64,000 nt of DNA, taken from Actinokineospora inagensis DSM 44258. Its GTDB lineage: Bacteria; Actinomycetota; Actinomycetes; Mycobacteriales; Pseudonocardiaceae. Made by a program: the position numbers and the translations under genes. Under the pieces are notes generated by a model. The model saw nothing but the letters and a program-made list of their open reading frames with translations. It had not been told where the DNA came from and searched no databases. Where the stretch lies: NCBI RefSeq assembly GCF_000482865.1, contig NZ_AXWW01000029.1:45750-109749 (forward strand), written 5' to 3'. This document shows positions 9,751 to 11,149 of this stretch, piece after piece; position 1 is the stretch's first letter, and every line of letters starts with the position of its first letter.

Positions 9751-9880
9751 CTCATCCAGAGGGGCAGAGGGATCGGCCCGAAGAAGCCCCGGCAACCGGC
9801 GTACGCGCCACTTCCTCATCGCGAGGAGGCGGACGACCACGGTGCCAATTCCGACCCGCGTAGCGGGATAGATGAGGAGA
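9751..9880 (+). promoter_or_regulatory. SAM-I (S-box) riboswitch
   Basis: This is a complete S-box aptamer. P1 forms from CTCATC (9751-9756) and GATGAG (9871-9876). AGAGGGGCAGAGGGAUCGG and GCCCGAAGAAGCCCCGGCAACC form P2 with the kink-turn and conserved core. GGUGCCAAUUCC (9841-9852) is the J3/4 signature, and GAUAGAUGAGGA closes the structure. The 3' strand of P1 runs into GAGGAG, the apparent ribosome site of the downstream gene, which suggests translational control: SAM binding stabilises P1 and hides the site. No separate terminator hairpin with a U-run is seen. Confidence 0.93.
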
Positions 9881-9889
9881 CACCTCGCG

Positions 9890-11149
9890 ATGACTTCTGT
9901 CGACGTCCAGACCGGCACCATCGACCTCGGCCCCGCTCGGGCCCTGTCCTGTCGTGAGTGCGGCCACCGGATCCCCCTCGCCGCCGAGTTCGCCTGCGCC
10001 GAGTGTTTCGGCCCCCTCGAGGTGGCTTACGACTTCGGCACCGTGACCCGCGCGGACATCGAGGCGGGCCCCAGGTCGATCTGGCGCTACCGCGCGCTGC
10101 TGCCGGTGCCGCCGGACGTGGAGCGCCACCCGAACACCGACCCCGGCCTGACCCGCCTGGTGAAGGCCGACCGCCTGGCCGCCGCGCTCGGCGTGAAGTC
10201 GTTGTGGGTCAAGGACGACACGGGCAACCCGACGCACTCCTTCAAGGACCGCGTGGTCGCCGTGGCGCTCGCCGCCGCCCGCACCCTCGGGTTCAGCGTG
10301 TTGGCGTGCCCGTCGACCGGCAACCTCGCCAACGCCGTCGCCGCCGCCGCGGCCCGCGCGGGCTGGGAGTCGGTCGTGCTGGTCCCGTCGTCGTTGGAGC
10401 GCGCCAAGATCCTGACCACCGCGGTCTACGACGGCGCCCTGATCGCGGTCGACGGCAACTACGACGACGTGAACCGCCTGGCGACCGAACTCGCCGCCGA
10501 GCACGAGGACTGGGCGTTCGTGAACGTCAACGTCCGCCCCTACTACGCCGAGGGTTCGAAGACGCTGGGCTACGAGGTCGCCGAGCAGTTGGGCTGGCGG
10601 CTGCCGCAGCAGGTCGTGGTACCCGTCGCGTCGGGCTCGCAGTTGACCAAGGTCGACAAGGCGTTCCGCGAACTCGGCGAGCTGGGCCTGGTCGAGCCGA
10701 CCCCATACCGGGTGTTCGGCGCGCAGGCCACCGGCTGCTCCCCCGTGTCGGCCGCGTTCAAGGCGGGCGAGGACGTGATCCGCCCGGTGAAGCCGGACAC
10801 CATCGCCCGCTCGCTGGCCATCGGCGCCCCCGCCGACGGCCCGTACGTGCTCGACTCGGTCCGCCGCACCGGCGGCGCCGTCGAGGACGTCACCGACGCC
10901 GAGGTGGTCGAGGGCATCCGCCTGCTGGCCCGCACCGAGGGCATCTTCGCCGAGACCGCCGGTGGCGTGACCGTGGCGACCGCCAAGAAGCTCATCGAGA
11001 CCGGCCAACTCGACCGCGACGCCGAAACCGTCCTCCTGATCACCGGCGACGGCCTCAAGACCCTGGACGCGGTCCAGGACCACATCGGCCCGCGCGCCAC
11101 CATCCCCCCGTCGGCCGCCGCCGTCCACGAGGTCCTCAACCGGGGCTGA
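9890..11149 (+). CDS. Threonine-synthase-like PLP enzyme, probable MetM-type homocysteine synthase
   Basis: A 419-residue fold-type II PLP enzyme of the threonine synthase family. A four-cysteine zinc ribbon (C21, C24, C36, C39) starts the protein; the PLP lysine is K119 in NPTHSFKDR; GNLANAVAAAAARAG and TGDGLK are further PLP/phosphate contacts. ATG 9890 follows GAGGAG; the upstream in-frame ATG at 9872 lies inside the riboswitch. A classical ThrC would normally be in a hom-thrC-thrB group; this gene is alone and under a SAM riboswitch. That fits the MetM branch, which converts O-phosphohomoserine to homocysteine with a sulfur-carrier protein. No metO-like gene follows here. Confidence 0.9.
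   Translation: MTSVDVQTGTIDLGPARALSCRECGHRIPLAAEFACAECFGPLEVAYDFGTVTRADIEAGPRSIWRYRALLPVPPDVERHPNTDPGLTRLVKADRLAAALGVKSLWVKDDTGNPTHSFKDRVVAVALAAARTLGFSVLACPSTGNLANAVAAAAARAGWESVVLVPSSLERAKILTTAVYDGALIAVDGNYDDVNRLATELAAEHEDWAFVNVNVRPYYAEGSKTLGYEVAEQLGWRLPQQVVVPVASGSQLTKVDKAFRELGELGLVEPTPYRVFGAQATGCSPVSAAFKAGEDVIRPVKPDTIARSLAIGAPADGPYVLDSVRRTGGAVEDVTDAEVVEGIRLLARTEGIFAETAGGVTVATAKKLIETGQLDRDAETVLLITGDGLKTLDAVQDHIGPRATIPPSAAAVHEVLNRG

Follow-up and report, generated by a model that had tools for sequence, protein, structure and literature searches.

The 64,000-nucleotide stretch of Actinokineospora inagensis DSM 44258 analyzed here (contig NZ_AXWW01000029.1, positions 45,750 to 109,749; "the window") carries an S-adenosylmethionine (SAM) riboswitch directly in front of a threonine-synthase-like gene, discussed below as a metM-like gene, that is, a candidate homocysteine synthase gene. 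The riboswitch is a SAM-I (S-box) aptamer on the forward strand (9749..9878), which matched the full model RF00162 (1-108) at 78.9 bits, above the gathering score of 44.4 and with an E value of 6.6e-17 for the whole window, and was the single Rfam match above threshold in the 64 kb. The aptamer helices were reproduced by the minimum-energy fold, and the aptamer 3' end lies 11 bases upstream of the gene, confirming the arrangement described in the initial annotation. The metM-like gene (9890..11149, forward strand) encodes 419 aa from the ATG at 9890, the length that its closest relative also has; with the in-frame ATG at 9872 as the start, the protein would reach 425 aa. The product is of the pyridoxal phosphate (PLP)-dependent type with a PALP domain, and its nearest named relatives, from Actinokineospora and 94-96% identical, are annotated as "threonine synthase." The N-terminal four-cysteine motif noticed earlier (C21, C24, C36, and C39; 9950..10006, forward strand) was also recovered; an alignment of 31 sequences shows C21-x2-C24 and C36-x2-C39 kept in at least 90% of them, and the motif is a predicted zinc ribbon. 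Lys119 (10244..10246, forward strand), the putative PLP lysine, aligns with Lys61, the PLP lysine of Thermus thermophilus ThrC.

The placement of the protein was explored with a tree of 76 proteins built by a quick method, in which 67 MetM-type rows formed one clade (starred branch, support 98), with the window protein inside and four ThrC rows apart. Within the clade, the window protein fell in the Pseudonocardiales part (starred, support 100), which places it amid rows that have metO. Outside the clade, on long, unsure branches, lay five long "threonine synthases" from haloarchaea and others. Six rows of the clade (f17) share 65-69% identity with the window protein, and in their loci a metO-type gene comes immediately downstream; they were taken as Streptomyces because the top named relatives of one row (L107) belong to that genus. 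Furthermore, an alignment of 130 MetM-type and 5 ThrC sequences contained 26 columns with one residue in at least 97% of the MetM-type sequences and another in all 5 ThrC sequences. The window protein has the MetM residue at 26/26 of these columns and the ThrC residue at 0/26; they include positions 88, 155, 160, and 188 of 1uim, which presumably lie near the active site. The MetM/MetO system of Streptomyces albulus was reportedly described by Hasebe et al. in 2024, and its MetM is said to take sulfur from thiocarboxylated MetO. According to PMC12172450, S. albulus metM has a SAM riboswitch upstream and its enzyme converts O-phosphohomoserine to homocysteine; the window gene belongs to the same threonine-synthase-like family and matches that description in its upstream SAM riboswitch, and the tie to S. 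albulus MetM rests on this account together with the Streptomyces relatives. The window differs in that metO is neither adjoining nor found elsewhere in the genome and that metX and metY are present. Judging from sequence, the gene is very probably MetM in Pseudonocardiales; its grouping with metO- and riboswitch-linked Streptomyces genes, and not with ThrC, supports the earlier proposal of a MetM outside Streptomyces.

It is important to consider the similarity of this protein to true threonine synthases. With the ThrC of T. thermophilus (1uim) and Mycobacterium tuberculosis (2d1f), it shares a PLP-dependent fold and the SFKDR and STGN motifs, at 33-35% identity in structural alignment, and it differs from them in the 26 columns, an extra N-terminal four-cysteine motif, the riboswitch, and the lack of linkage to hom and thrB. 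The NCBIfam thrC model TIGR00260 gave 266.9 bits to the window protein (cut-off, 167.1) and 286.7 bits to the canonical ThrC of the genome and thus hardly separates the two. The structure prediction of the window protein (mean predicted local distance difference test score, 87.4) showed a threonine-synthase-like fold in comparison with solved folds, and this predicted fold does not decide between MetM and other readings. The closest solved fold to the model was that of plant threonine synthase, an enzyme activated by SAM. These likenesses bear on the possibility of a second threonine synthase (or a synthase plus deaminase) under SAM control, which could, for example, balance threonine and methionine at their shared precursor. 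The genome (7.28 Mb, 97 contigs, 99.23% complete) yielded four matches to the window protein: itself, a ThrC-like protein (34% identical), a CysM-like protein, and a weak one. The canonical ThrC is encoded on contig C52 in a closely packed hom-thrC-thrB row, away from the metM-like gene, so the window gene is not the only threonine synthase-like gene of the genome and stands apart from hom and thrB, as the initial annotation had claimed, and the separate cluster for which it suggested a search is present. Together with the 26 differing columns, the strict riboswitch linkage, and the frequent lack of metX where the gene is present (both below), this makes a second threonine synthase improbable. 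A plain second threonine synthase was rejected as the principal explanation on the separate hom-thrC-thrB row, the differing columns, and the riboswitch.

The linkage between riboswitch and gene was followed in fetched loci. Out of at least 555 relatives, the best 80 were taken, all from named genomes of Pseudonocardiales and some near kin (Actinopolyspora, a record under the name Nocardia, and some metagenome-assembled genomes). An aptamer lies upstream on the same strand in 80/80 of these loci, as scanned with a model for which 17 actinomycete aptamers, including that of the window, were used. At the Rfam threshold, an aptamer also lies upstream in 40/40 class-wide loci, in 8/8 further loci, and in one Nonomuraea record, with fewer than about 300 bases between aptamer and gene in the loci scored in this way. 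The recurrence in 80/80 and 40/40 loci shows that the pairing is not due to chance. Among 246 genomes of the class, 155 were counted as carriers of a metM-like gene (best match with E < 1e-100), and in the other 91 the matches are truncated or of ThrC grade, with G007, G224, and G227 between 1e-51 and 1e-69. A SAM riboswitch is present in 155/155 carriers versus 10/91 of the others, G224 being one of the 10; these genome counts refer to a riboswitch anywhere in the genome, its position relative to the gene being checked in the fetched loci only. The remaining genomes with a SAM riboswitch and no MetM-grade match are G002, G019, G025, G050, G213, G220, G230, G236, and G243.

The arrangement of the aptamer suggests how it would act. 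The closing helix P1 is formed by a 5' strand CUCAUC (9751..9756, forward strand) and a 3' strand GAUGAG (9871..9876, forward strand) through six standard pairs, and its 3' strand overlaps the predicted Shine-Dalgarno sequence GAGGAG (9874..9879, forward strand), located 10 bases before the ATG at 9890, with GAG in common. Owing to this overlap, SAM is predicted to repress translation without a terminator: SAM binding would close P1 over the Shine-Dalgarno sequence and lower metM translation, so that the methionine branch would draw on the shared phosphohomoserine and sulfur only at low SAM. The probability of Shine-Dalgarno bases being unpaired was 0.00-0.21 when folding was unconstrained and 0.00-0.06 when P1 was enforced, and with P1 formed the remaining Shine-Dalgarno bases pair with a CUC further downstream. 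No open ON structure was obtained, as GAGG was still paired with CCUC when P1 was held open. A pattern search near the gene, independent of Rfam coordinates, found GATGA followed 13-26 bases on by an in-frame start codon in 79/80 loci of Pseudonocardiales and near kin and in 40/40 class loci. Many loci (59/79 and 25/40) carry a CCTC or CTTC stretch in the spacer that separates the Shine-Dalgarno sequence from the start codon (window 9880-9889); this stretch could pair with GAGG and may belong to the expression platform. In a 2005 survey, actinobacterial riboswitches are described whose base stem overlaps the translation start and which regulate without a terminator, and the GAG common to P1 and the predicted Shine-Dalgarno sequence resembles them (PMC1262725). 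The same survey differs from our case in that, for the methionine operons of Actinobacteria, it reported no conserved upstream RNA structure (PMC1262725). Translational control by a SAM-I riboswitch is described for Xanthomonas (PMC7270179).

A second SAM riboswitch in the genome (60.6 bits; L003:9910-9999, equivalent to C20:55209-55298) precedes L003:10201-11208, an ABC ATPase with a C-terminal NIL domain that scored 187.9 with the MetN model (cut-off, 499.7) and has no permease gene seen directly behind it. No Rfam match was found around the genome's own metX (L021) or the two PF01053 genes of G015 (L202 and L212). Downstream of metM, the raw sequence of the window contains about a dozen head-to-tail copies of CACGC (11297-11365).

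The distribution of metX also bears on the role of the gene. Since no genome and 0/14 controls pass the cut-off of the metX model (500 bits), a line of E < 1e-80 was used instead. By this line, metX is missing from 79/155 genomes with a metM-like gene versus 5/91 without, counts that ignore relatedness among genomes and include, among the 79, six with intermediate metX matches (1e-25 to 1e-48). These counts fit metM as a second, complete route to homocysteine. Neither a MetM-grade nor a strong metX match was seen in G007, G009, G062, G167, and G236, of which G007 has perhaps a truncated metM and G167 an intermediate metX match. In the window's own genome, the methionine genes include metX adjoining a metY on C76, one gene each of the CGS and CGL types, and a further metY-like gene. 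The search for metB, metX, and metY that the initial annotation had proposed thus gave metX, metY, and CGS-type genes; the MetM reading stands, and a role of MetM as the sole homocysteine route was rejected on the presence of these genes.

The other question is which protein would deliver the sulfur. No MetO was found in the genome: the Pfam ThiS model had three matches (CysO, ThiS, and MoaD) and the CysO query had one, which answers the earlier call for a genome search for a MoaD/ThiS-like MetO. Likewise, no metO-like open reading frame occurs in the first 30 kb of the window, in agreement with the original statement that metO is not next to the gene. An unlinked MetO elsewhere in the genome was considered and not found by either search; as the assembly is 99.23% complete in 97 contigs, an assembly gap could still hide one. 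The CysO gene lies between a Mec-like JAB gene and cysM, the ThiS gene adjoins thiG- and thiO-like genes, and the MoaD gene stands behind a moaA-like gene, the names of the thi and moa neighbors being a reading of sequence only. CysO (L198:2894-3172) has a C-terminal GGAL, so two residues would need trimming before its Gly-Gly end can be thiocarboxylated; the adjoining Mec-like JAB protein (L198:3243-3695) could do this. Cysteine synthesis by CysO, CysM, and Mec is known from mycobacteria. The genome resembles that system in having mec, cysO, and cysM in one cluster, and the difference proposed here is that the same carrier would also serve a homocysteine synthase.

The absence of metO extends beyond this genome. 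A ThiS-type open reading frame (metO) directly follows metM in 32/40 class loci, with a 4-base stop-codon overlap in 15/32, and is missing in the other eight (L113, L117, L125, L128, L136, L139, L142, and L143), where the flanks searched reached about 4 kb or the contig end. No metO was found beside metM in any of the 80 loci of Pseudonocardiales and near kin, where the flanks covered a maximum of 10 kb and were shorter near the ends of contigs. Along the MetM tree, metO presence switches six times, and at least two of these changes are forced by starred branches. In 69/70 genomes of the family, the CysO query gave one strong match (131-188 bits), 33 of the 69 having also a second, weaker match of 32-76 bits with no more than 49% identity, and all 53 fetched CysO genes adjoin cysM. 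In the carrier tree, 32 MetO sequences lay on one side (starred, support 99) and the CysO of this genome on the other; consequently, this CysO is not a relocated MetO. Two class genomes, G023 (L132) and G125 (L120), have metO beside metM and one carrier match in the genome; since that single match is metO, a separate CysO seems to be missing there, the reverse of the window's case.

Leaving out these two, 25 class genomes with a metM-like gene have just one carrier match and showed no adjacent metO. The single match is far from metM in 23/25 of them, its place not being listed for G044 and G208. Six of the 25 lack metX: G073 (one contig) and G162 (five contigs), both listed as 100% complete, and G008, G014, G041 (match 1.5e-46), and G052, which are in 130-230 contigs. 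G073 and G162 belong to the same order as the window genome; both carry metM and its riboswitch, encode CysO together with CysM at another place, and gave no match for metO or metX. The metA model had matches in 0/30 genomes searched, these two among them, and in 8/14 controls. Thus, MetM in G073 and G162, if it works, must work without MetO. At the discriminating columns, G008, G014, and G052, which are without metO and metX, have 26/26 MetM residues, and G073 and G162 have 25.

As no MetO was found in the genome, we predict CysO as the donor, and from sequence comparisons it is the likeliest one for MetM there. The median identity to 32 MetO is 60% for CysO, 33% for ThiS, and 32% for MoaD, and the PAVAGG tail occurs in 32/32 MetO and 53/53 CysO. 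ThiS and MoaD, which the genome also encodes, belong to the ThiS family and end in Gly-Gly, so either could be thought to feed MetM; with tails of TAVQGG and PPFAGG and little more than half the identity of CysO to MetO, this is the least probable of the alternatives. The main rival to CysO as donor is free sulfide, the metO-less lineages having dropped the carrier altogether. It would fit most of the evidence for CysO, including the absence of metO beside metM in 8/40 class loci and 80/80 loci of Pseudonocardiales and near kin with enzyme and riboswitch kept, and the six changes of metO presence on the best tree. Nevertheless, of 194 columns conserved in 33 metO-bearing MetM rows, 190 keep the majority residue in 82 Pseudonocardiales rows, as if the partner surface were still in use, and a carrier with the MetO tail is retained in 69/70 genomes of the family, although CysM alone may explain the latter. 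We regard the use of free sulfide as unlikely, if clearly less so than the other alternatives. A search for changes in MetM after metO loss found 12 columns that are conserved with metO and change in at least two metO-less lineages, seven of them common to f3 and f16 and none changed in Pseudonocardiales, a result that is not convincing either way.

Altogether, the gene likely encodes an enzyme converting O-phosphohomoserine to homocysteine with sulfur predicted to come from CysO, to which we assign a probability of about 0.58 based on the riboswitch, the clade, and the lack of a MetO match. Under this explanation, MetM would swap the phosphate of O-phosphohomoserine for sulfur, as reported for S. 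albulus MetM, with the sulfur supplied by CysO as the thiocarboxylate of its Gly-Gly end; CysM would be fed by this carrier too, and MetM would operate alongside the metX-metY route. Several observations weigh against this explanation. With metX, metY, and a CGS-type gene in the genome, the cell may be able to do without metM. The Shine-Dalgarno sequence is partly paired even in the fold with P1 open, and the NCBIfam thrC model accepts the window protein. G073 and G162 also have CGS-type genes, by which O-phosphohomoserine could have another use there, plant CGS being an enzyme that uses this substrate. In addition, metX is kept in 19/25 single-carrier metM genomes versus 57/130 other metM genomes, and this higher retention would also fit MetM working poorly without MetO. 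Finally, a Microcystis relative 51.6% identical to S. albulus MetM is reported to have threonine synthase and deaminase activity (mSystems, PMC12172450), so the family may not be purely one of homocysteine synthases.

Extended beyond this genome, the proposal is that in Pseudonocardiales and, as separate cases, in several further lineages of actinomycetes, CysO feeds both CysM for cysteine and MetM for homocysteine, that MetO was lost repeatedly, and that the methionine branch is gated by the SAM riboswitch, whose P1 lies over the metM ribosome-binding site; this broader version we hold tentatively, at slightly less than even odds. MetM and its riboswitch in S. albulus are already published. 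The loss of MetO with likely use of CysO is apparently new; in the literature searched, we did not find a report of MetM without MetO or of CysO feeding MetM, part of which the primary MetM paper may cover. If the explanation holds, many public actinomycete "threonine synthase" records would be homocysteine synthases at the branch point of threonine and methionine, and the SAM riboswitch of actinomycetes would gain one dominant, conserved target. The likeness to plant threonine synthase raises the question of SAM control of MetM at the protein level as well. Moreover, the metO-less genomes make the question of the donor testable: a carrier of its own, one carrier for two synthases, or free sulfide.
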